Translations under genes and position numbers: made by a program
Virus record (IMG/VR): IMGVR_UViG_3300030098_001954
Location: 1-22,685 of that record
Direction: 5' to 3' (one strand)
DNA: 22,685 nt
Source of the DNA: a virus
The notes under the pieces: generated by a model
What the model saw: only the letters and a program-made list of their open reading frames with translations
Told to the model about the DNA's origin: nothing
Databases searched by the model: none
Shown here: positions 8,530 to 21,532 of the stretch, in pieces
Position numbering within the stretch: position 1 is the stretch's first letter
Layout of the letters: each line of letters starts with the position of its first letter

Positions 8530-8732
8530 CGGCACATACATCCTATAAGAGAACCTGTTCCATCTTTCATTATGTGAAGATTTAAAGCATCAACATATCC
8601 TGTTAATTTTAATCTTAAAATTTCACACACATCAAAACAATCAACATGACTTGTCAAAACTACACCATCTAACAATTTTTTTGTTACTGGTATCAGATGA
8701 TATATTCCATCATTTAATATTATTAAATCCAT
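8526..8732 (-). CDS. hypothetical protein, 68 aa, last gene of leftward unit
   Basis: 68 residues starting MDLIILNDGIYHLIPVTKKL. The gene follows the oxygenase with a one-base overlap (TAATG on the minus strand), so it is probably translated by re-initiation; no separate ribosome site is visible. The sequence is mixed alpha/beta, with Cys32, Cys36, Cys65 and Cys67 and no membrane span. I do not recognise a family. Its stop codon overlaps that of the converging peptidase gene across the palindromic TTAA at 8526-8529. Confidence 0.7.
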   Translation of the reverse strand: MDLIILNDGIYHLIPVTKKLLDGVVLTSHVDCFDVCEILRLKLTGYVDALNLHIMKDGTGSLIGCMCR

Positions 8733-9265
8733 TAAAATAATACCGGTTCTAAAAGAAAATCAAAAGACAAGATTCTTTTTTTAAAATTTATTTTATTTGG
8801 TTCTGTGTAGTGTGTAAGAAATTGTGGAACTATCATCATGTCGCCCTCTTTAACTTGTGGTGTATATAACACACTTCTGTCTTCTTCACTATTCCATGGC
8901 TGTATGTATGTGGTTTTGGGTGAGTCTGGTTTCATATCAAGATATAATATACCAGCGTACCCTTGGGAGCTGTGATTGTGTGGAACATGATAGTGTCCCT
9001 TGTGATATACAACCGACCAGACTCTTTGCAATAATATCTTAGAATTAAACTTTGCTCTTATCAGACTAAACTCATCCTTAAATATATCTCTAAATTCTGT
9101 AGTAATACTACATTTATCTCTATTACTATAAAAATTAAGACGAGGCATCTCTGGATATCTAGCCAAAGTTTTTTCTAATTTTTTCTTTTTGTTTTTAAAA
9201 TCAATACACTTAATTTTAAAAAATTCTATTTTAAATACAGGTTCTATTTCGTATTTTATATCCAT
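8732..9265 (-). CDS. putative 2OG-Fe(II) oxygenase (PF13759/TIGR02466-like), 177 aa
   Basis: The second half shows a double-stranded beta-helix oxygenase pattern: YHKGHYHVPHNHSS with His96 and His98 as iron-ligand candidates, GYAGILYLD at 102-110, TYIQPW at 119-124, EGDMMIVPQFLTHYTEPN with the distal ligand His152, and KKRILSFDF with Arg164 placed to hold 2-oxoglutarate. This matches the 'putative 2OG-Fe(II) oxygenase' family common in marine phages, whose substrate is generally unknown. The N-terminal 70 residues are basic and charged. Length is normal for the family. It overlaps the upstream helicase gene by ten bases, so the two are co-expressed. A protein, nucleotide or DNA substrate are all possible; this sequence does not decide. 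Confidence 0.85.
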   Translation of the reverse strand: MDIKYEIEPVFKIEFFKIKCIDFKNKKKKLEKTLARYPEMPRLNFYSNRDKCSITTEFRDIFKDEFSLIRAKFNSKILLQRVWSVVYHKGHYHVPHNHSSQGYAGILYLDMKPDSPKTTYIQPWNSEEDRSVLYTPQVKEGDMMIVPQFLTHYTEPNKINFKKRILSFDFLLEPVLF

Positions 9266-10689
9266 TCTCTTAACTCTTCACCCATGATTTCTGTTGCAAT
9301 ATTCATTTTTTTACGTAGTGCTTTTACTATTTTTTCATCTACCGTTTTTGGTGTTATAAAATCCACATACGTCACTGATTTTTTTTGACCTATTCTATGT
9401 GCACGATCCTCTGATTGTAATCTTTTCTCTAGATCATAGCCATTAGAATAGTAGATAACATTATTGGCAGCTGTCAGTGTTATACCATAACCACCTGTCT
9501 GTGGATTACCTACAAAAAATCTTGCATCGGAGTTTGGATCTTGAAATCTTTCAATATTTTTTTGCCTAACATCTGCCTGAATTGCGCCATAATATTGTAC
9601 TATAGAGTCTTCTCCAAATTTTTTAGATATGGCTTTGACTATCTGTTGAATGTCATACACATAATTAGCCCAAATAATTACTTTACCCTCTACTTCCTCT
9701 AAAACATCAAGTAATTCAACCATTCTGTTATTTTTTATTTCTGTAATTGTATCGTCATCATTCTTTAAATGACCACAAGTAATCTGATGTAGACGCATAA
9801 GTTGTGTTAATACGTGGGGTGCGGTAGCCATCTTGCCTTTTAGTTGAGCGAGGGCCGCGGATTTCATTGTGGCATAAATGTGTCTTTGTTCGTCTGACAA
9901 TTCTACTTCTCTTTGTATGTATACTTTTTCTGGTAGATCCAAACAATCTTCTTTTAATACTCTGTAAGAAAATTTTTTAAGAGAGTCAGATAATTCATCT
10001 AATCTTTTATAACCACCTACGATCTGAACTCTACGACCACCAAAATTTCTATCTATCATTGTGGCATATCTATTTCTAAATGTGTAATAAGAATTAAATC
10101 CAAGTAATTCTTCGTGTAAAAAATTACATTGTGTATACAAATCTAGCGGTGATTTAGTAACCGGTGAACCTGTAAGTATCCTTCTATACTTTGCAAGTTT
10201 ACCTAAACTTAAAATAGCTTTTGTTCTTTTTGCTGTTGGTGTTTTAATTGATGTAGATTCATCAACAGCCATGATTGCTTTGTGGCAATTAAGAAACTTT
10301 GTGGCAAATTCTAGGCCTTTTTTAGTCGAAAATGCTTCTACATTCATGACAAGGATGTGAAGGTCGTAGTCTATCTTAAACAATTGTTGATACTCTTTAT
10401 CCTTTGCTTTGGATGTAGTAGCAGTCCATAATATCGTTTTGTGATCTATATGGCTAGGTAAATGATTTGGTATTTCTTGAGAAAACCAGTTTCTATATAC
10501 ACCCTTTGGTGCTATAATTAATGCCGAATTTATTTTGCCTTTATCATAAAGCATAGCGATATTATCAACTAACACTTTAGATTTACCTGTACCCATCTCC
10601 ATAAAATATCCATACTCTTCTTTGTTCCAAGATTTTTCTAGAGCAGTAACTTGATGCTCATATGGCTTTGTTTTAAATTTATAATTCAT
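9256..10689 (-). CDS. SNF2-family SF2 DNA helicase / translocase, 477 aa
   Basis: This has a full SF2 helicase core: PYEHQ Q-motif-like region at 9-13, Walker A EMGTGKS at 31-37, motif Ia IIAPKGVYRNW near 58-68, Walker B variant DEST at 143-146, motif III TGSP at 173-176, motifs IV and V in the second lobe (IIWANY; GITLTAANNVIYY), and motif VI QSEDRAHRIGQ at 425-435. The DEST box and 'RAHRIGQ' are diagnostic of the SNF2 group. About 477 residues is the compact phage form with no extra reader or DNA-binding domain. It probably moves on duplex DNA, remodelling protein-DNA complexes or aiding replication or recombination. It is the first gene of the leftward unit and faces the divergent promoter region. 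Confidence 0.95.
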   Translation of the reverse strand: MNYKFKTKPYEHQVTALEKSWNKEEYGYFMEMGTGKSKVLVDNIAMLYDKGKINSALIIAPKGVYRNWFSQEIPNHLPSHIDHKTILWTATTSKAKDKEYQQLFKIDYDLHILVMNVEAFSTKKGLEFATKFLNCHKAIMAVDESTSIKTPTAKRTKAILSLGKLAKYRRILTGSPVTKSPLDLYTQCNFLHEELLGFNSYYTFRNRYATMIDRNFGGRRVQIVGGYKRLDELSDSLKKFSYRVLKEDCLDLPEKVYIQREVELSDEQRHIYATMKSAALAQLKGKMATAPHVLTQLMRLHQITCGHLKNDDDTITEIKNNRMVELLDVLEEVEGKVIIWANYVYDIQQIVKAISKKFGEDSIVQYYGAIQADVRQKNIERFQDPNSDARFFVGNPQTGGYGITLTAANNVIYYSNGYDLEKRLQSEDRAHRIGQKKSVTYVDFITPKTVDEKIVKALRKKMNIATEIMGEELREWI

Positions 10690-10704
10690 TTTCTACTTTC
10701 TATG

Positions 10705-10734
10705 TTGACAATTATATAAACACTATTATATAGT
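10705..10734 (+). promoter_or_regulatory. sigma70-type promoter for the rightward replication operon
   Basis: The perfect -35 TTGACA at 10705-10710 is followed after 16 bases by TATATA (10727-10732), or after 18 by TATAGT (10729-10734). It reads toward the gene starting at 10752. The -10 lies inside the palindrome at 10720-10736, so a protein bound there would block it. Confidence 0.75.
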
Positions 10735-10741
10735 GTGTCAA
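10711..10741 (-). promoter_or_regulatory. sigma70-type promoter for the leftward SNF2/oxygenase unit
   Basis: On the minus strand a perfect TTGACA (plus-strand TGTCAA, 10736-10741) is followed after 17 bases by TATATA (10713-10718), or after 19 by TATAAT (10711-10716). It reads toward the helicase start at 10689. It overlaps the rightward promoter face to face, so the two probably compete. Confidence 0.7.
10720..10736. promoter_or_regulatory. palindromic candidate operator
   Basis: ACACTAT-TAT-ATAGTGT is a perfect inverted repeat with 7-bp arms and a 3-bp centre. It covers the rightward -10 and touches the leftward -35, an ideal place for a repressor or switch protein. The binding protein is unknown. 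Confidence 0.65.
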
Positions 10742-10751
10742 GAACTAAGAA

Positions 10752-11150
10752 ATGAAAAACAAAATATTTGAATTGTATAAACCAAATTCTTTAACAGAGT
10801 TTTTAGATTTTAATAAAAACAACCCTGAAGAGAGATTTGTTTATGTAGTTCAACAACCAGCTCCTAATATAAATATATTAAGTGCATCTGATTTTGGTTA
10901 CCTTGTAATATGTTTGCCTAATAGAGATCAGGCTATATTATCTACTGCACCTTATGTGCAAAAGATGAAAAAAAATTTACAAGATTTTAGAAAGCAAGAT
11001 TACTTGCTTGCTGTGGGAGATCCTGTTATTATAGGTATATCTACTGCAGCTGTGAGTGAGGTAACTTCAGGTCAGTTTAATATTTTAAAGTGGGACAAAC
11101 GAGAATATAGATACTATCCACTTGAAGTAGATATGTATCAGAAAGGATAA
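10752..11150 (+). CDS. hypothetical phage protein, first gene of replication operon, 132 aa
   Basis: 132 residues beginning MKNKIFELYKPNSLTEFLDF. It is mixed alpha/beta with several short hydrophobic strands (FGYLVICLP, DPVIIGIS) and no Cys or membrane span. The name-giving features of known DNA-binding or enzyme families are absent, and I do not recognise it. As the first gene behind the strong divergent promoter it is probably among the earliest proteins made. The ATG is about 18-20 bases after the -10 region, so the leader is very short; the ribosome site is weak (purines AAGAA). The stop TAA at 11148-11150 directly abuts the next ATG. Confidence 0.85.
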   Translation: MKNKIFELYKPNSLTEFLDFNKNNPEERFVYVVQQPAPNINILSASDFGYLVICLPNRDQAILSTAPYVQKMKKNLQDFRKQDYLLAVGDPVIIGISTAAVSEVTSGQFNILKWDKREYRYYPLEVDMYQKG

Positions 11151-11759
11151 ATGAGTATAAAACAAAAAGTAAAAATTAAAACTTTTACAGGTAGTGGATC
11201 TTTCGACATTAGAGATGAAATGATTAATGATTCAAAAGATTTTTTAGATACGGTTGAAGTTACAACAATTGCACAAGAGTGTGTAAATTTAAAAAAAGTA
11301 GAAGATGATATAGCTGCAATAGAGGAGCAGTTGAAAAAGAAAAAAGAAGAAGCTGATCATATCAGTTCAAAAATAATTCCAGAACTATTAGCAGAACAAG
11401 GATTGTCAGAAATTAAATTAGCTGATGGTTCTAAAGTTTCTGTTAAAAAAGAATTTAGGGCAACTCTTCCAAAAGATGAAGTAAAAAGAGATGCTGCCTA
11501 CCAATGGCTTCGAGATCAAGGGTTAGGAGATATTATTAAAAACAATGTCTCGGTAACATTTGGTAAAGGAGAAGATGACAAGGCCAAATCTTTGATTGAC
11601 CTTGCGGTTGCTAATGGTTACGAGCCAAGTCAGAAATCTGATGTAGCTTGGAATACATTAACAGCCCTGTATGAGGAGCGTGTCAAGGCCGGCCTTGACA
11701 TGCCTTCTGATGTTTTTAGTCTATGGATTAAAGACAAAACTAAAATAAGTCGGAAATAA
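11151..11759 (+). CDS. coiled-coil hypothetical phage protein, 202 aa
   Basis: The protein has an N-terminal leader rich in Asp and Thr, then a charged heptad-like helix at about residues 45-76 (VNLKKVEDDIAAIEEQLKKK and on), predicted as a coiled coil. A small globular part follows, containing ADGSKVSVKKEFRATLPKD and YQWLRDQGLGDIIKNNV. The pairing of coiled coil and 'G-x-x-D-I-I-K' domain occurs in phage proteins encoded near recombination or replication genes, but I know no proven function. There are no Cys pairs and no membrane span. The start directly follows the preceding stop with AAAGGA just upstream. The neighbour downstream is a possible ssDNA-binding-like protein. Confidence 0.85.
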   Translation: MSIKQKVKIKTFTGSGSFDIRDEMINDSKDFLDTVEVTTIAQECVNLKKVEDDIAAIEEQLKKKKEEADHISSKIIPELLAEQGLSEIKLADGSKVSVKKEFRATLPKDEVKRDAAYQWLRDQGLGDIIKNNVSVTFGKGEDDKAKSLIDLAVANGYEPSQKSDVAWNTLTALYEERVKAGLDMPSDVFSLWIKDKTKISRK

Positions 11760-11778
11760 CAACAAAGGATAAAGAAAA

Positions 11779-12546
11779 ATGAGTAAAGAAGTAATGAAAA
11801 AAGGATCGGGATCAGTAGCCTTGTTTGCAGAAGACGTGGCAACAGGTTTTGATAACATGACGCAAGATGATCTTGCGTTGCCTTATGTCAGAATCTTGGG
11901 TCAGTTATCGGCACAAGTGAATGAGGGGGATGGTAAATACATCGAAGGCGCTAAGCCTGGGATGATTTATAATAATGTTACCCATGAAATTTTTGATGGG
12001 AAGAAAGGTATTAAGGTGGTGCCTTGTTATTATAAAAAAGACTATCCAGAAAAAAGCGACAAAGGAGATGGGAATCCACTAACGGTGGCTACTCACCTAC
12101 CTAATAGTCCAATAATTAAAACAGGTAAGAGAGAGGGTGCTAAGATAAGATTGCCAAATGGTAATTATCTTGAGGAGACTGCTTATTACTATGTTTTAAT
12201 GGAAACAAAAGCAGGTGGTATGACACCAGCGTTGATTACTATGAAATCATCGCAGCTTTCTGTCAGCAAAAATTGGAATTCTATGATGAAGACCATACAA
12301 ATTGAGGACGGAAAAGGTGGCTTTGTTACACCACCAATGCATGCAGTTGTGTATAACTTGTCGTCAGCAATACAAAAGAACGATAAAGGTTCTTGGTATG
12401 GCTGGTCAATTACACAAGACCGAATTATGGGACAAGAGGACAAAGGATTGTACAAAAGTGCAAAAGAATTTGCTTCTAGTGTCTCGGACGGAACCGTGCA
12501 AGCAAAAGCTGATGTGGAAGAGAAGTCGGATAGTACACCATACTAA
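11779..12546 (+). CDS. conserved phage protein, possible ssDNA-binding-like replication accessory, 255 aa
   Basis: 255 residues. The N-terminal motif FDNMTQDDLALPYVRILGQL is followed by a beta-rich core (IKVVPCYYKKDY, AYYYVLMET, PALITMKSSQLSVSKNWNSM) and a disordered, acidic C-terminal tail (about 225-255) ending DSTPY. A beta-rich core with an acidic tail, encoded just before the primase, resembles phage ssDNA-binding proteins, but no OB-fold signature can be confirmed by eye. The start has AAAGGA about ten bases upstream. Base composition is richer in G+C than the flanking genes. A strong hairpin follows the stop. The role is inference from composition and neighbours. Confidence 0.85.
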   Translation: MSKEVMKKGSGSVALFAEDVATGFDNMTQDDLALPYVRILGQLSAQVNEGDGKYIEGAKPGMIYNNVTHEIFDGKKGIKVVPCYYKKDYPEKSDKGDGNPLTVATHLPNSPIIKTGKREGAKIRLPNGNYLEETAYYYVLMETKAGGMTPALITMKSSQLSVSKNWNSMMKTIQIEDGKGGFVTPPMHAVVYNLSSAIQKNDKGSWYGWSITQDRIMGQEDKGLYKSAKEFASSVSDGTVQAKADVEEKSDSTPY

Positions 12547-12553
12547 CCAAAAT

Positions 12554-12575
12554 GGGAGGATCGTAAGATCCTCCC
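12554..12575. terminator. perfect 9-bp hairpin with GTAA (GNRA) loop: weak terminator, attenuator or mRNA stabiliser
   Basis: GGGAGGATC at 12554-12562 pairs exactly with GATCCTCCC at 12567-12575 around the loop GTAA, a GNRA-type tetraloop. Only three T residues follow, so full intrinsic termination is doubtful. It lies between the 255-residue gene and the primase ATG at 12594, and could make the first genes more abundant than the primase. Confidence 0.7.
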
Positions 12576-12593
12576 TTTACAAAGAAAAAAGAA

Positions 12594-14126
12594 ATGATAA
12601 TAAAAAAAGATAAATTCAAAAATATATTTAGCGGATTAACAATAGCTTATGGACAATATCAACCAGGTGAACGTGGCGAAAACGGAAAGCAACAAGGAAA
12701 AGCTTTTATTGTACGTGGTGCCGTCACAGAAGAACTCTGGGAAAATCACCTCACAGGAAAAGGACCAGCACTGGGAATCATCCCTATTACGGAGAGCAAT
12801 GATTGTAGGTGGGGGTGCATTGATATCGATGAATATAATTTTGATCATCTTAGCCTCATTAAAAACATTCGGTCTAATAAACTCCCTTTAATAGTCTGCC
12901 GTAGTAAATCAGGCGGAGCACACGTTTTTTTATTTACCAAAGAAAATATACCTGCATCTTTGATGCAATCAAAATTAAAATCTATGGCCACCATATTAGG
13001 TTATGAAGGGTCAGAAATATTTCCAAAACAAACAGAAATACTAGTGGATCGTGGGGACACTGGTAATTTTTTAAACTTACCCTACTACAATGAGATGAAA
13101 GGACTACGTTATGCTATCAACGATAATGGCACCAGTTGTACACTTCAGGAATTTTTTGAGCTCCATGATGTTCATGCGCTCACAAAAGAACAAGTCGAAG
13201 CGATTAAAACGGAAGAAAAAAAAATAGAGGAAGCGTTTCCTGGAGGACCACCTTGTCTAAACAAACTTGCAACAACAGGATTTGGACAAGGTTCTAGAAA
13301 TAATGCTTTGTTTAATATTGCAGTATATTACAAACAATCTGCACCGGATACATGGGAAGATAAAATTGTAGAGGCTAATCTAAAATATATGGATCCAACA
13401 CTTAGTAATAGTGAAGTTCAACAATTAATTAAATCTGTAAATAGAAAAGGCTATGATAGATATAGATGTAAAGATTCACCTATTAACGCTGTTTGTCAAT
13501 CTGGTTTATGTAGAACAAAAAGATTTGGTGTGGGATTTGGTGAAGAAGAGATGCCCATGTTAGGTAGTCTTACAAAGTATTCATCAAAACCACCAGAGTG
13601 GTTTTTAGATGTGGATAAAAAAAGAATACAATTAAAATCAGAGCAACTTTATAGTCCGCAACTATTTGCATTGGCATGTCTTGATCAGGCTAATCTTGTT
13701 GTGCCTGTACCAAAACCAAAAGATTGGAAACAACATTTTTTAAAACCTATGATGCAAGGTTTGCAAGAAGTAGAACCTTTAGAATCTTTAGATCCAGTAA
13801 ATGAGTTAACAGGATTACTCCAAGATTGGACAACAAACAGACAATCAGCAAGAACTTTTGATGATATATTAAATAAACTACCATACACAGATGAGAAAAG
13901 AGAATTTACATATTTTAGAATGGAAGATTTTTATAATTTTTGTAAACGAAATCATTGGGAGAAAGATAAAAATCAAACAGGTAATTTAATAAAACAATTA
14001 AGTGTGTTTGTAGATGAGGAGAGAATGAGAATTAAAAAACAACAACCTAGATTAATTAAAATAAAAACTATGAAACAAGTGGAGGCTAGTGTTACAAAAG
14101 AACCTTACCAAGAGGAGCATTTTTAG
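12594..14126 (+). CDS. AEP-superfamily DNA primase (TOTE-type), 510 aa
   Basis: The archaeo-eukaryotic primase pattern is clear: IDIDE at 76-80 gives the metal ligands Asp77 and Asp79, CRSKSGGAHVFLF at 102-114 holds the nucleotide-binding SGGAH with His110, and GNFLNLPYYN at 157-166 closes the catalytic core. After it comes GQGSRNNALFNIAVYYKQ (231-248), typical of the C-terminal (PriCT-like) helical part, and a Cys cluster (Cys292, Cys301, Cys306) in RCKDSPINAVCQSGLC that may bind zinc. Residues 320-510 are helical with no recognised helicase motif. It should make primers for the PolA replisome. The ATG lacks a clear ribosome site and lies 19 bases after a strong hairpin. The stop overlaps the next GTG. 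Confidence 0.9.
   Translation: MIIKKDKFKNIFSGLTIAYGQYQPGERGENGKQQGKAFIVRGAVTEELWENHLTGKGPALGIIPITESNDCRWGCIDIDEYNFDHLSLIKNIRSNKLPLIVCRSKSGGAHVFLFTKENIPASLMQSKLKSMATILGYEGSEIFPKQTEILVDRGDTGNFLNLPYYNEMKGLRYAINDNGTSCTLQEFFELHDVHALTKEQVEAIKTEEKKIEEAFPGGPPCLNKLATTGFGQGSRNNALFNIAVYYKQSAPDTWEDKIVEANLKYMDPTLSNSEVQQLIKSVNRKGYDRYRCKDSPINAVCQSGLCRTKRFGVGFGEEEMPMLGSLTKYSSKPPEWFLDVDKKRIQLKSEQLYSPQLFALACLDQANLVVPVPKPKDWKQHFLKPMMQGLQEVEPLESLDPVNELTGLLQDWTTNRQSARTFDDILNKLPYTDEKREFTYFRMEDFYNFCKRNHWEKDKNQTGNLIKQLSVFVDEERMRIKKQQPRLIKIKTMKQVEASVTKEPYQEEHF
14112..14117 (+). promoter_or_regulatory. Shine-Dalgarno site fixing a GTG start
   Basis: GAGGAG lies eight bases before GTG 14126, which overlaps the primase TAG. 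This favours the GTG over the later in-frame ATG at 14141. Confidence 0.7.
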
Positions 14127-14512
14127 TGAGAGACGATTTGATGGTACAGCAACAGGTCAAAAGCATATGGCAGCACATGGTTGGTGTCATCTGTTTAAAC
14201 AAGACCAGACGTGAGAAAGTCAAGAAGATGTTGCCAGCCTTCTTCGAAGAGTTTCCAACAGCGATACATTTATTACAATCGGATAGAGACAAGATAGCAG
14301 AGATGCTGAAAGACTTAGGCATGAAACACGTCAGGGCCAACAGGCTGTGGAGGATGTCGGAAGATTATCTCGGTTGGGACGGCAAGGACGCAACAGAATT
14401 ATTTGGTATCGGCAAGTATGGCAGCGATAGCTATAGGATATTTTATAAGAATGAGATACCGGACAACATACAAGATAGCGAACTAAAAAGATATGTAAAG
14501 GAGGAGATGTGA
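14126..14512 (+). CDS. MBD4-like HhH-GPD DNA glycosylase (probable G:T / G:U mismatch repair), 128 aa
   Basis: The chain follows the catalytic domain of vertebrate MBD4, as I remember that sequence, almost end to end. [20 protein letters not shown] matches its [41 protein letters not shown] matches [36 protein letters not shown] (93-106) matches HGIGKYGNDSYRIF, the helix-hairpin-helix; IQDSELKRY (115-123) matches PEDHKLNKY and keeps the catalytic Asp (Asp117). No iron-sulphur Cys cluster and no methyl-CpG domain are present. It should remove thymine or uracil opposite guanine. It is coupled to primase (GTG overlapping TAG) and helicase (overlap of four bases). G+C is about 43% by hand count, against about 22-27% in samples of the flanking genes. 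Confidence 0.85.
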   Translation: [128 protein letters not shown]

Positions 14513-16017
14513 AAACAATAATACTTGGTCCACCTGGTACAGGTAAGACCACAACTTTATTAAATTTAGTAGATGAATTTATACAAGATGGAATTAGACC
14601 AAAACAAATAGGTTATTTCTCATTTACGAAGAAAGCTGCCACAGAAGCAGCTACAAGAGCGTCTGAAAAATTTGGATTAGACATAGAAAATGATTTACCC
14701 TTTTTTAGAACTTTACATTCTTATGCTTTTAATCAATTAGGTATGACTAAAGAAAAAATGATGAAGACAGAAGACTACAAAGAGTTTGGTGAAAAGTGTG
14801 GCATACCAATTAAATCTACAAAATTTTCTGACAACGATGGCACATTCAACTCTGATAATGAATATCTTACAATTATAAATACAGCTATTGTAAAACGAAT
14901 GGATTTATTAGAATACTATGATTCTCGTCAAAACATATTAGACATAGAAAGAAATACGTTATTTTTATTATCAGAAGAATTAAAAAGATTTAAAAAAGAA
15001 AAAGGATTAAAAGATTTTAACGATCTCATAGAGGATTTTTTAAAAAAAGAAACTATAAATAAGTTTAAGGTATTGTTTATTGACGAGGCACAAGATTTAT
15101 CTTTGCTGCAGTGGGAGATGGTGAGAAAAATTTGGAGTCGTGCAGAAAAAACTTATATTGCAGGAGACGATGATCAAGCAATATTTAAGTGGGCAGGTGC
15201 AGACGTAGATCACTTTATTGCGTTGAAAGAAGAAGTAGATGACATACAAACATTAGATCAATCGTATAGGATTCCTGGTGGACCTATACATGAATTATCA
15301 CAAAAAATAATTAATCAAGTTCAAAATAGATTTGATAAAGATTATCAACCTAGAGAGGAGCATGGTGTATTAAAAAGATACTCTGACATTACACAAGTAG
15401 ATATGTCGGCAGGTAATTGGTTAGTGTTATCTTCTGCAAATCATTTTTTAGATTCTGTAAAAGAAGTGTGTGAACTTCGGGGCTGGTATTATCAATACAA
15501 AGGTAGAAATTCTATCCCATTAAAATTATTATTAGCACTAAATAATTGGGAAGCATGGCGTAAAGGTGGACTATTAAATCATTTAGAGATAAAAAATATT
15601 TATGAATATTTAGGATCAAATGTATTAGAAGGTTTTAGAAAAGGTAAAACATTACATTCTGATGATAAGTATACTTTACAAGAGTGTAAAGATAATCATG
15701 GTTTGATAGTTGATTTAGTCTGGTACGAAGCATTTGAAGGATTAGATCCTATCACAGAAAACTACATTCGTAATATGCGGGCGAATGGAGAACAGATAAA
15801 TAAAAATCCGCGTATTATTATGTCAACAATACATGGAGCGAAAGGAGGAGAAGCTGACAAAGTTTTACTAATGCAAGACATCACAAACGCAGCACTTGAA
15901 ACAATGAGTTATGATCCAGATGAGTTACATAGATTATTTTATACTGGAGCGACGAGAGCGAAACGCGAATTGCATGTTTTGGACCCAAGAGATTTTGATC
16001 GAGCTTATATACTATGA
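14509..16017 (+). CDS. SF1 UvrD/Rep-type DNA helicase, 502 aa
   Basis: The SF1A motifs run in order: Walker A GPPGTGKTT at 7-15, FSFTKKAA at 38-45 (Ia), RTLHSYAF at 67-74, Walker B VLFIDEAQD at 188-196, GDDDQAIFKWAGA at 219-231 (III), QSYR at 251-254 (IV), STIHGAKGGEAD at 439-450 (V) and YTGATRA at 478-484 (VI). At about 500 residues it is smaller than UvrD and closer in size to Dda-like phage helicases. It probably unwinds 3'-5' during replication, recombination or repair. The start is GTG 14509 overlapping the glycosylase stop, with AGGAGG at 14499-14504. It is the only canonical unwinding helicase in the operon. The stop overlaps the next ATG (ATGA). Confidence 0.95.
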   Translation: MKTIILGPPGTGKTTTLLNLVDEFIQDGIRPKQIGYFSFTKKAATEAATRASEKFGLDIENDLPFFRTLHSYAFNQLGMTKEKMMKTEDYKEFGEKCGIPIKSTKFSDNDGTFNSDNEYLTIINTAIVKRMDLLEYYDSRQNILDIERNTLFLLSEELKRFKKEKGLKDFNDLIEDFLKKETINKFKVLFIDEAQDLSLLQWEMVRKIWSRAEKTYIAGDDDQAIFKWAGADVDHFIALKEEVDDIQTLDQSYRIPGGPIHELSQKIINQVQNRFDKDYQPREEHGVLKRYSDITQVDMSAGNWLVLSSANHFLDSVKEVCELRGWYYQYKGRNSIPLKLLLALNNWEAWRKGGLLNHLEIKNIYEYLGSNVLEGFRKGKTLHSDDKYTLQECKDNHGLIVDLVWYEAFEGLDPITENYIRNMRANGEQINKNPRIIMSTIHGAKGGEADKVLLMQDITNAALETMSYDPDELHRLFYTGATRAKRELHVLDPRDFDRAYIL

Positions 16018-16253
16018 CACACAAAGATATATTTAAAGGATCTACATATGATTCATTAGAAAAGCAGGTAGGTGGGAAGCACTATCGAAACATGAAGATT
16101 CAGCCAGCACACTTTATAAACGAAAACAAGTTGCTTTTTGCAGAAGGCAACGCTATAAAGTATATTTGTAGACACCAGTCAAAAGGAAAAGAGGAAGATG
16201 TGAAGAAGGCAATTCATTATTTAGAAATGATATTAGAGAGAGATTATTCGTGA
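16014..16253 (+). CDS. DUF3310 family protein (T7 gp1.7 nucleotide-kinase related), 79 aa
   Basis: The whole DUF3310 (PF11753) signature is present: KQVGGKHYRNMKIQPAHFI at 17-35, FAEGNAIKYICRHQSKGKEE at 42-61 and DVKKAIHYLEMIL at 62-74. The family includes the small nucleotide kinase gp1.7 of phage T7, whose product phosphorylates dGMP and dTMP, but T7 gp1.7 is much longer and only part of it is shared, so an enzymatic role here is uncertain. Such genes often sit next to phage DNA polymerases, as here. The ATG overlaps the helicase TGA by four bases and the stop overlaps the polymerase GTG (GTGA). Confidence 0.9.
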   Translation: MTHKDIFKGSTYDSLEKQVGGKHYRNMKIQPAHFINENKLLFAEGNAIKYICRHQSKGKEEDVKKAIHYLEMILERDYS

Positions 16254-18112
16254 GAAGCACTCAAATACCTTTGTTCACTCCTGAAACAGAATGGGTGATG
16301 CCAGAAGAATTAAAAGATCTTCATGGCTACAAAGAAATAGCAATAGATTTAGAGACTAATGACCCACATCTTTTAGAACTTGGATCAGGTAATGTTACCG
16401 GTAGAGGGCACATTGCTGGCATTGCGGTGGCCGTAGAGGGCTGGTCAGGCTATTTTCCGATACATCATGAGTCTGGTGGAAATATGGATAAAAAATTGGT
16501 CCTATCCTGGCTACAAGATATTTGTAATCAAGAAGAAACTAAATTTATATTTCATAACGCCATGTATGACATCTGTTGGTTGAGATCTGCTGGTGTGATT
16601 GTAAAAGGTAAAATAATTGACACGATGATTGCAGCATCTTTAATAGATGAAAATAGATTGTCTTACCAATTAAATTTTTTATCTAAACATTATGTGGGTT
16701 TTGGTAAAGATGAAAGTATTTTAAACGCAGCTGCAAAAGAATATGGATTAGATCCTAAAAAAGATTTGTGGAGACTACCTGCATTGTTTGTAGGCCAGTA
16801 TGCTGAGCGTGATGCAGAATCTACATTAAAGCTTTGGAAAAAACTGGAAACAGAATTATACCAGCAAGAGCTCTGGGACATATTTAATTTAGAGACTAGA
16901 TTATTTCCTTGTCTAGTTGACATGAGATTCAAAGGTGTCAGAGTCGATCTTGATAAAGCTGACAAAATTAAAAAATATTTAATAGATAAAGAGAATAAAA
17001 TTCTTAAAGATATCAAAGACTTAACAGGAATTGACGTAGAGATACATGCAGCTAGGAGTATTGCAAAGGCATTTGATAAATTAAAGTTGCCTTATGACAG
17101 AACAGAAAAAAGTAAAGAACCATCTTTTACAAAAAATTTTTTACAAAACCATCCACACCAACTACCCAAAGCAATAGCAGAGGCACGAGAACTCAACAAA
17201 GCTCATGGCACATTTATAGATTCAATAACTAAACATTCAGTCAATAGTAGAATACATGCAGATATAAATCAGATAAGATCAGATGCGGGAGGGACGGTAA
17301 CCGGTAGATTCAGTATGTCTAATCCAAATCTACAGCAGATACCAGCAAGACATCCAGAACTTGGACCTTTAATTAGATCTATATTTATTCCAGAAGAGAA
17401 TCATACGTGGGGATCATTTGATTACTCACAACAGGAACCTAGAATATTAGTGCACTATGCAAAACTACAAAATTTAAATGGTGTTGATGAAATTGTAGAT
17501 GCATACAAAGCAGGTGATGCAGATTTCCACCAGGTTGTTGCAGACATGGCAGGGATCGAACGTAAACAAGCCAAAACAATTAATCTTGGATTGATGTATG
17601 GTATGGGTAAAAATAAATTAATGGCAGAACTAGGACTGATGAAAGATTCTGCAGAAAAATTGATAAAACAATATCACATTAAAGCCCCTTTTGTAAAACA
17701 ATTAATGGATAATGTATCTCGCAAAGCAAATGATCGTGGTAAAATTAGAACTTTACTTGGTCGAGCCTGTCATTTTGATTTGTGGCAGCCGGTGCAGTTT
17801 GGTGTTTTTAAGCCATTACCATTAGAACAAGCTAGAAAAGAATATGATGAGCCACTTAAACGTGCATTTACCTATAAAGCACTCAATAAATTAATACAAG
17901 GAAGTGCAGCAGATATGACAAAAAAATCTATGGTAGCTCTTTATGAAAGTGGTATAATACCACACATACAGATTCATGATGAAGTAGATATTTCTGTTGA
18001 GTCTGATGAAAAAGCAGAGGAAATAATTGAGATTATGGAATCTGCAGTTAAGTTAAAAGTACCAAACAAGGTTGATTATGAAAAAGGAAAAAATTGGGGA
18101 GATATTAAGTAG
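16250..18112 (+). CDS. polA: family A DNA polymerase with 3'-5' exonuclease, 620 aa
   Basis: The proofreading exonuclease is complete: AIDLET with Asp33/Glu35, FHNAMYD with Asn103/Asp107, and YAERD with Tyr184/Asp188. The polymerase has TGRFSMSNPNLQQIP (351-365), motif A DYSQQEPRIL with Asp391, motif B with Arg438, Lys442, Leu446 and Tyr450, and motif C HDEVD at 577-581. Leu446 stands where E. coli Pol I has Phe762; phages carry Phe, Tyr or Leu there, and Leu has been linked to slower or temperate replication styles. Gln395 and Pro397 flank the motif A Glu where Pol I has Ile and Leu. There is no 5'-3' exonuclease domain. The start is GTG 16250 (GTGA overlap), with an AGAGAGAG purine tract before it. 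It is the replicative polymerase of this phage. Confidence 0.96.
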   Translation: MRSTQIPLFTPETEWVMPEELKDLHGYKEIAIDLETNDPHLLELGSGNVTGRGHIAGIAVAVEGWSGYFPIHHESGGNMDKKLVLSWLQDICNQEETKFIFHNAMYDICWLRSAGVIVKGKIIDTMIAASLIDENRLSYQLNFLSKHYVGFGKDESILNAAAKEYGLDPKKDLWRLPALFVGQYAERDAESTLKLWKKLETELYQQELWDIFNLETRLFPCLVDMRFKGVRVDLDKADKIKKYLIDKENKILKDIKDLTGIDVEIHAARSIAKAFDKLKLPYDRTEKSKEPSFTKNFLQNHPHQLPKAIAEARELNKAHGTFIDSITKHSVNSRIHADINQIRSDAGGTVTGRFSMSNPNLQQIPARHPELGPLIRSIFIPEENHTWGSFDYSQQEPRILVHYAKLQNLNGVDEIVDAYKAGDADFHQVVADMAGIERKQAKTINLGLMYGMGKNKLMAELGLMKDSAEKLIKQYHIKAPFVKQLMDNVSRKANDRGKIRTLLGRACHFDLWQPVQFGVFKPLPLEQARKEYDEPLKRAFTYKALNKLIQGSAADMTKKSMVALYESGIIPHIQIHDEVDISVESDEKAEEIIEIMESAVKLKVPNKVDYEKGKNWGDIK

Positions 18113-20594: not shown

Positions 20595-20774
20595 ATGGCA
20601 GATCCAAGTAAATTTAAGTCGGTATCTGTGCCGATAGAAACTTATAAGAAGTTAAATTTTTTAGCTAACAATAAGTTTTTAGATGCACAATTAACGATTA
20701 GTAAAACGATCGAAGCTCTTGCAAGCAGAGCAGCAAAGAAGTTAGGATATAAAAATGGCAAATCGAACACATAA
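20595..20774 (+). CDS. ribbon-helix-helix (Arc/MetJ-type) regulator candidate, 59 aa
   Basis: AAAGGA at 20581-20586 precedes ATG 20595. The strand SKFKSVSVPIETYKKLNFLA (5-24), with alternating residues, is followed by two helices (LTISKTIEALASRAAKKL, 33-50), the normal order of a ribbon-helix-helix DNA-binding domain; the length also fits. It is expected to act as a dimer on short inverted repeats. It has its own leader with promoter-like sequence and palindromes, so auto-repression is plausible. The last codons overlap the next gene by 20 bases. Confidence 0.8.
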   Translation: MADPSKFKSVSVPIETYKKLNFLANNKFLDAQLTISKTIEALASRAAKKLGYKNGKSNT

Positions 20775-20940: not shown

Positions 20941-21092
20941 AAAACCCTGTGGCCAAGCAATTGAGAACACCAAAATTTAGAAGTAAGAAAATAGAATCTA
21001 AAAAGAAATATAACAGAAAAAAAAGAGAGATCGTTGGTTATTATTATGACTACGATGGTAAAGAGCAGATTTTATATGAGGATAAAAGATAA
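20937..21092 (+). CDS. small basic phage protein, 51 aa
   Basis: The start is GTG 20937, overlapping the previous TGA (GTGA), with GAGG at 20928-20931. MKNPVAKQLRTPKFRSKKIE and KKKYNRKKR make a very basic N-terminal half; the rest is VGYYYDYDGKEQILYEDKR. The 'KNPVAK..RTP..R' and 'YNRK' pieces recur in marine phage small proteins. Charge suggests nucleic-acid binding. TAA overlaps the next ATG. Confidence 0.78.
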   Translation: MKNPVAKQLRTPKFRSKKIESKKKYNRKKREIVGYYYDYDGKEQILYEDKR

Positions 21093-21532
21093 TGATTCCA
21101 GAAACAGATAGAGCATATATCGCAGGACTTTTTGATGGTGAGGGTTGTGTCACTTACAAACAATACATGCGTAAAAGAAAAGGACAGAAGAAAGCATATC
21201 CCACCTGGTCCATCAGAATGGAGATAAACATGACAGATAAATCGTTATTGACATGGGTGCACGAGGTGTTGGGTGTTGGCACCGTTGGTGAGAAAAGACA
21301 CTATAGTAAATATGCTCTGGGTTGGAAAAGACAATGGCGTTGGCGTTGTCAATTTAGGGATGCATACTTTGTATCTTGTCTGATATGGCCCTGGTCTCAC
21401 ACAAAACTAGAGAAGATCCAACAGATAATAAAACATTATGATCCTGGGACATGCGGAACCTACGATGGATTTAAAATGAATGGCAAAGTAATAGATCTAC
21501 AAACCTATAAAAAAATGATGAGTTTAGAATGA
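21092..21532 (+). CDS. LAGLIDADG-family homing endonuclease, single motif, 146 aa
   Basis: AYIAGLFDGEGCVTY at 8-22 is a LAGLIDADG helix with the acidic Asp15/Glu17 near its end. One motif and 146 residues imply a homodimer. The rest shows alternating strands and basic residues (IRMEINMTDKSL; YALGWKRQWRWRCQF) as in the DNA-binding saddle. No intron or intein boundary is visible, so it is free-standing. G+C is about 41% in sampled stretches, above the local level, which suits a mobile gene. ATG overlaps the previous TAA; stop overlaps the next ATG. Confidence 0.88.
   Translation: MIPETDRAYIAGLFDGEGCVTYKQYMRKRKGQKKAYPTWSIRMEINMTDKSLLTWVHEVLGVGTVGEKRHYSKYALGWKRQWRWRCQFRDAYFVSCLIWPWSHTKLEKIQQIIKHYDPGTCGTYDGFKMNGKVIDLQTYKKMMSLE

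Follow-up and report, generated by a model that had tools for sequence, protein, structure and literature searches.

Genes and features of the locus

The DNA analysed here, called the window throughout, is the 22,685-nucleotide stretch spanning positions 1 to 22,685 of the IMG/VR virus record IMGVR_UViG_3300030098_001954. By helicase identity, its nearest annotated records are 023Pt_psg01 (84%) and the two Pelagibacter phages HTVC027P (59%) and HTVC023P (46%). On this basis, the window is assigned to the HTVC023P type of pelagiphage (PMC9599517), with the host inferred from these relatives only. Two gene blocks point away from each other in the region of interest (Table 1). The leftward unit begins with an SNF2-type helicase, which starts at 10689 on the minus strand, continues with a 2OG-Fe(II) oxygenase, and also includes a 68-aa protein. 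The rightward replication operon begins with a 132-aa protein that starts at 10752 on the plus strand. The 62 bases between these two starts are the entire intergenic gap.

Table 1. Coordinates of the genes and intergenic features in the window
Feature	Position	Strand	Evidence
SNF2-type helicase, first gene of leftward unit	9256..10689	-	Pfam SNF2-rel_dom 4e-25, Helicase_C
2OG-Fe(II) oxygenase, second gene of leftward unit	8732..9265	-	Pfam PF13759 1.1e-07
Pam3_gp32-like 132-aa protein, first gene of rightward operon	10752..11150	+	PF23992 1e-30; AlphaFold2 model
Replication operon: Pam3 gp33-like, gp34-like, primase, HhH-GPD-like, UvrD-type helicase, DUF3310, DNA polymerase A	11151..18112	+	
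Putative reciprocally nested bidirectional promoter element, 37 bases, TTGAC...GTCAA	10705..10741	.	Ends kept in 151/151 and 78/78 locus records
-35 TTGACA, predicted rightward (replication operon) promoter	10705..10710	+	Sequence; rank 1 sigma70-type site in window
-10 region, predicted rightward promoter	10727..10734	+	TATAGT 10729-10734 (spacer 18) or TATATA 10727-10732 (spacer 16); column conservation
-35 TTGACA, predicted leftward (helicase unit) promoter	10736..10741	-	Sequence; rank 2 site in window
-10 region, predicted leftward promoter	10711..10718	-	TATAAT 10716-10711 (spacer 19) or TATATA 10718-10713 (spacer 17)
Inverted repeat ACACTAT-TAT-ATAGTGT	10720..10736	.	Exact in window
Purine-rich short leader GAACTAAGAA, 132-aa gene	10742..10751	+	Most window-clade relatives: GAA.TAAGAA or close to it, 10 bases
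Purine-rich short leader CATAGAAAGTAGAAA, helicase gene	10690..10704	-	Relatives: CTAGAAAG.AGAA forms, 15-21 bases

Read directly on the plus strand, the gap is TTTCTACTTTCTATG-TTGACA-ATTATATAAACACTATTATATAGTG-TGTCAA-GAACTAAGAA. The two TTGACA boxes on opposite strands that the initial annotation described, each with a TATA-type -10, are present, and each strand carries a sigma70-type hexamer pair at a distance of 15-19 bases. The two -10 regions do not overlap; each adjoins the -35 of the opposite promoter, and the preferred -10/spacer pairs depart slightly from the optimum of 17. The inverted repeat was also correctly described: it covers the rightward -10 and extends into one base of the leftward -35. 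The label "face-to-face" given to the pair is wrong, because the predicted starts, near 10741 for the rightward transcript (~ 10 bases before the 132-aa gene) and near 10703 for the leftward transcript (~ 14 bases before the helicase), would send the two transcripts apart without overlap. The promoters are better described as overlapping and divergent.

Elsewhere in the window, a LAGLIDADG-type endonuclease gene (21092-21532, plus strand, Pfam 9.1e-06) was observed downstream of the replication genes. A nine-pair hairpin, GGGAGGATC-TTAC-GATCCTCCC, lies at 12554-12575 (minus strand) between the gp34-like and primase genes. It has a terminator-like score on the minus strand only, and might signal processing or attenuation of the plus-strand transcript.

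Conservation and placement of the element

The gap was extracted from every locus holding both the helicase and the 132-aa gene. In the clade that includes the window, TTGAC...GTCAA was found in 151 of 151 locus records, a count in which some contigs were fetched by both queries and which leaves out L053, where the helicase match is broken. In another clade, with L242 as its seed and helicases ~ 65% identical to those of the window clade, it was found in 78 of 78 loci. Together, both ends are kept in all 229 locus records, and these records hold 106 distinct cores, of which 92 are 37 or 38 bases long. The window clade contributes 57 distinct cores (52 of 37 bases, three of 38, and two of 36), and the L242 clade contributes 49, mostly of 37 or 38 bases with a range of 33-38. 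Among the 37-base cores of the window clade, columns 1-5 and 33-37 are invariant and both TATA blocks are strongly conserved, while columns 17 and 29-31 vary almost freely. Boxes that are invariant in 229 of 229 records, in an element that otherwise varies, support the earlier proposal of two overlapping divergent promoters serving the helicase unit and the replication operon.

In the window clade, the rightward -10 reads TATAAG, TATATC, TATAGT, or TAAAC with TG at the extended -10 position; some relatives carry an extended TGnTAAA -10 in place of the one in the window. TG at this position was observed in 14 of 18 window-clade cores without TATAT, versus 1 of 34 with it. The helicase tree requires a minimum of six or seven changes between the two states, but only about five independent pairs fall on supported branches (p 0.125). 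That TG compensates for a lost TATAT is, from these alignments, suggestive only.

The element is intact in five loci (L032, L111, L092, L099, and L147) that have extra DNA between it and one of its neighbours, and these extra stretches look like small genes as judged from their sequence. We also searched all IMG/VR contigs for the pattern TTGACANNTATATA-N17-TGTCAA. Among the matches listed (81 sites at 80 loci), 80 of the 81 sites lie at the helicase/132-aa gene pair: 65 between the two genes, and 15 either next to one of the two or at that boundary on the other strand. The single site elsewhere among these matches is in L434. Judged by these matches, the element is tied to a single place and is not scattered as an operator would be. 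As a separate observation, the rightward gene in many of the L242-clade loci L335-L413 has a first ATG that overlaps the final base of the leftward -35 (TGTCAATG). Unless translation begins at a later codon, the rightward transcript of such loci would have almost no leader.

Strength of the boxes against chance

Both strands of the whole 22.7-kb window were scanned with an E. coli promoter weight matrix. The two sites of the element ranked first and second, at 11.49 and 11.45 bits, and the next site scored 9.96. The same scan of the complete genome of 023Pt_psg01 (MW574966) ranked the leftward site first. In a separate promoter scan, the plus-strand site was the sole 11/12 match in the window; the minus-strand site was missed because only spacers of 16-18 were allowed. 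The remaining TTGACA boxes of the window had no comparable -10s by box search and weight-matrix scan. The arrangement TTGACA-N21..28-TGTCAA was found in 3.5% of shuffled windows.

We then held the ends of the cores fixed, shuffled the middle, and compared -10 scores in the two clades. The mean score of the weaker side was 1.06 in the window clade, versus -0.14 in shuffles (sd 0.23), and 1.24 in the L242 clade, versus -0.19 (sd 0.21). Taken by direction, the leftward -10 of the window clade scored 3.17 versus 1.10 (sd 0.27). The rightward -10 alone did not exceed shuffles in the window clade (1.16 versus 1.04, sd 0.28), but it did in the L242 clade (2.65 versus 1.08, sd 0.28).

Other layouts at the same gene pair

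Among the HTVC027P-group loci (L170-L249; 75 loci with 36 distinct versions), the gap reads TTTACT-N16-TATATA-N17-AGTCAA. It shares with the window the gene pair, its divergent orientation, and the right-hand GTCAA end. It differs in having a single, central, near-symmetric -10 common to both directions, which is the arrangement of the published bidirectional class discussed below. In the HTVC023P group, TTTGCA..AATCAA, with TTTGCA and TTGATT boxes, suggests by eye a back-to-back pair of -35s with the -10s outside. This reading of the boxes is the weakest part of the comparison, and the layout scores poorly with the E. coli matrix. These two layouts are the ones found in the cultured phages HTVC027P and HTVC023P. 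The three layouts need two changes on the helicase tree, which is the least possible.

More distant phages carry the same genes differently arranged. In YuA and Pam3, the helicase lies upstream of the 132-aa homologue in the same direction, without such an intergenic promoter. The YuA gp02-gp03 region resembles the window in having a homologous helicase and a 132-aa-type gene behind a -35/-10 promoter; however, its genes run in one direction from a single promoter upstream of the helicase, which the YuA record annotates with medium measured activity. DSL-LC04 has the helicase and 132-aa genes in divergent arrangement. Given the same-direction order in YuA and Pam3, the divergent arrangement is a feature of the pelagiphage side, together with DSL-LC04.

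In HTVC027P itself (L161/L333), we also noticed three equally scoring copies of TTGACA-N17-TAGGAT close to small genes, at ~ 17718 (minus strand), 19224 (plus), and 19774 (plus). This is possibly a repeated phage promoter. In its main text, the paper on the HTVC027P transcriptome (PMC12753301) gives no timing for either the helicase or the gene that opens the operon.

Candidate regulators

Two gene products had been put forward as possible repressors of the region, the 132-aa protein and a ribbon-helix-helix protein at 20595, and neither gained support. The 132-aa protein belongs to a Pfam family of unknown function (PF23992, Pam3_gp32-like, 1e-30) that is also present in YuA and Pam3. It is an unlikely repressor of the element, because the family exists in phages that do not have this promoter. 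Its AlphaFold2 model is confident (pLDDT 88, pTM 0.84), and almost all of the top PDB matches to the model are CARF/SAVED cyclic-nucleotide-binding domains and ring nucleases. These matches have Z of 5-7.2, Foldseek probability up to 0.98, and E above 0.009; such Z values fall below the safe level for fold kinship, so the model may be said to resemble CARF/SAVED domains. This likeness, too, may point away from a repressor. As a lead from the model, the protein may be a small counter-defence protein, a ring nuclease or nucleotide sponge, placed at the head of the operon.

The protein at 20595 has 59 residues and no Pfam ribbon-helix-helix match. A model predicted from this single sequence consists of one long helix (pTM 0.41), and the assignment as a ribbon-helix-helix protein is unproven. 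Relatives of it were found in 023Pt_psg01 and in HTVC027P, the latter being without the nested element.

Alternative readings of the locus

The initial annotation saw in the inverted repeat a palindromic switch site, and named loss of the repeat in close relatives as the result that would count against it. A repressor would bind ACACTAT-TAT-ATAGTGT, block the rightward promoter, and so choose between the helicase unit and the replication operon. The repeat does have an apt position, being exact, covering one -10, and touching the other -35. We ran the proposed search through related phages, and the repeat was not conserved: at least six of the seven pairs are formed in only 2 of the 52 distinct 37-base cores, those of the nearest relatives L001 and L032, and its gain or loss is one change on the helicase tree. 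Two of the outer pairs (core positions 17-31 and 19-29) are each complementary in 9 of the 52 cores, and shuffling the window core yields a 7-base arm in 13% of cases. Its paired positions are only slightly above column shuffles (3.5 versus 3.0 of 7), mainly at the A-T positions of the TATA boxes, and its centre is at 10728, versus 10723 for the dyad of the conserved element. Pfam annotation of the window identified no DNA-binding repressor gene. On conservation we reject the palindrome as an operator; it is probably chance plus the self-complementary TATATA, and we regard a repressor-driven switch at this site as very improbable.

The symmetric ends themselves could be taken for half-sites of a dimeric regulator, with the 37 bases as its operator and the -35 boxes as a secondary matter. 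Ends that are perfectly inverted, invariant in two clades, and confined to one locus among the matches listed would fit such an operator. They are also, however, exact sigma70 -35 consensus with matching -10s at the right distance on both strands, and the element varies between 33 and 38 bases in overall length, an unusual amount of drift for a fixed dimer. In addition, one end is TTTACT in the HTVC027P group and the gap is wider, yet the -35/-10 distances there are 16-17. We consider a dimeric regulator quite unlikely. Another reading would keep only the leftward promoter as real, treat the rightward one as a by-product of symmetry, and have the replication operon read from elsewhere; the shuffle result for the window clade, in which the leftward -10 is clearly above chance and the rightward one alone is not, speaks for it. 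Against it stand a plus-strand -35 that is equally invariant, a rightward -10 that rises above shuffles in the L242 clade, the TATAT-to-TG exchange at that -10, and the lack, in the window, of any plus-strand site of comparable strength between the helicase and the operon. This reading we judge unlikely. That the element is instead an AT-rich replication origin or a packaging-related site is suggested by its base composition and by the adjoining replication genes, but its conserved letters are promoter boxes at promoter spacing, without iterons. The GC skew gives an origin no support, as its sole turn follows the short leftward gene block, and we find an origin or packaging site extremely improbable.

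A probable nested two-way promoter

The reading that we prefer, and hold to be probable, is that the 37 bases form a compact bidirectional promoter for host RNA polymerase with its sigma70-type housekeeping factor, shared by the two units without a dedicated repressor. Two TTGAC-N16..19-TATA promoters would occupy the same DNA in opposite directions, each -10 abutting the -35 of the other. The footprint of one RNA polymerase is longer than the 37-base element, so two polymerases should be unable to bind at once. This geometry supports the earlier proposal that only one polymerase binds at a time. Host polymerase would bind in one direction or the other but not in both at once, and the strengths of the two promoters would set how much the helicase unit is expressed relative to the replication operon, with no dedicated repressor required.

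The element is real, deeply conserved, and functional-looking, and in kind it would be a variant of overlapping or bidirectional promoters. Bacterial bidirectional promoters have been described recently by Warman, Middlemiss, Grainger and colleagues, mostly from start-site maps (PMC12825309, PMC10268837). These share a -10, and their divergent starts lie 7-25 bases apart, most often 18, and also 10 and 23. The window element has in common with them a pseudo-symmetric DNA that would fire both ways, with room for polymerase in only one orientation at once, and the expectation of competition when the promoters are strong. In contrast to them, it has two separate -10s, each abutting the -35 of the other promoter, in place of a shared one; both of its -35s are consensus, and its predicted starts are ~ 37 bases apart. 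In five E. coli bidirectional promoters, basal activity was too low for competition, but competition was strong once one -35 was improved (PMC12825309). Since both -35s are consensus in the window, polymerase competition is plausible here. The conjugation switch of the Bacillus plasmid pLS20, as outlined in PMC4207663, also has two overlapping promoters pointing apart. That switch uses DNA looping, whereas the window element has no conserved operator or identified repressor.

More tentatively, and with the balance of our judgement against it, this may be a distinct, long-conserved geometry in abundant marine phages, with two near-consensus promoters of which each has its start region within the -35 of its partner, in which polymerase competition alone fixes the ratio, and for which sister clades exchanged layouts while the gene pair stayed divergent. 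One gene pair served by apparently three two-way layouts offers a deeply sampled natural series. Polymerase competition should be strongest in the nested layout, with its consensus -35s on both strands, and the layouts are ready-made templates for testing whether such competition sets expression ratios in phage infection.
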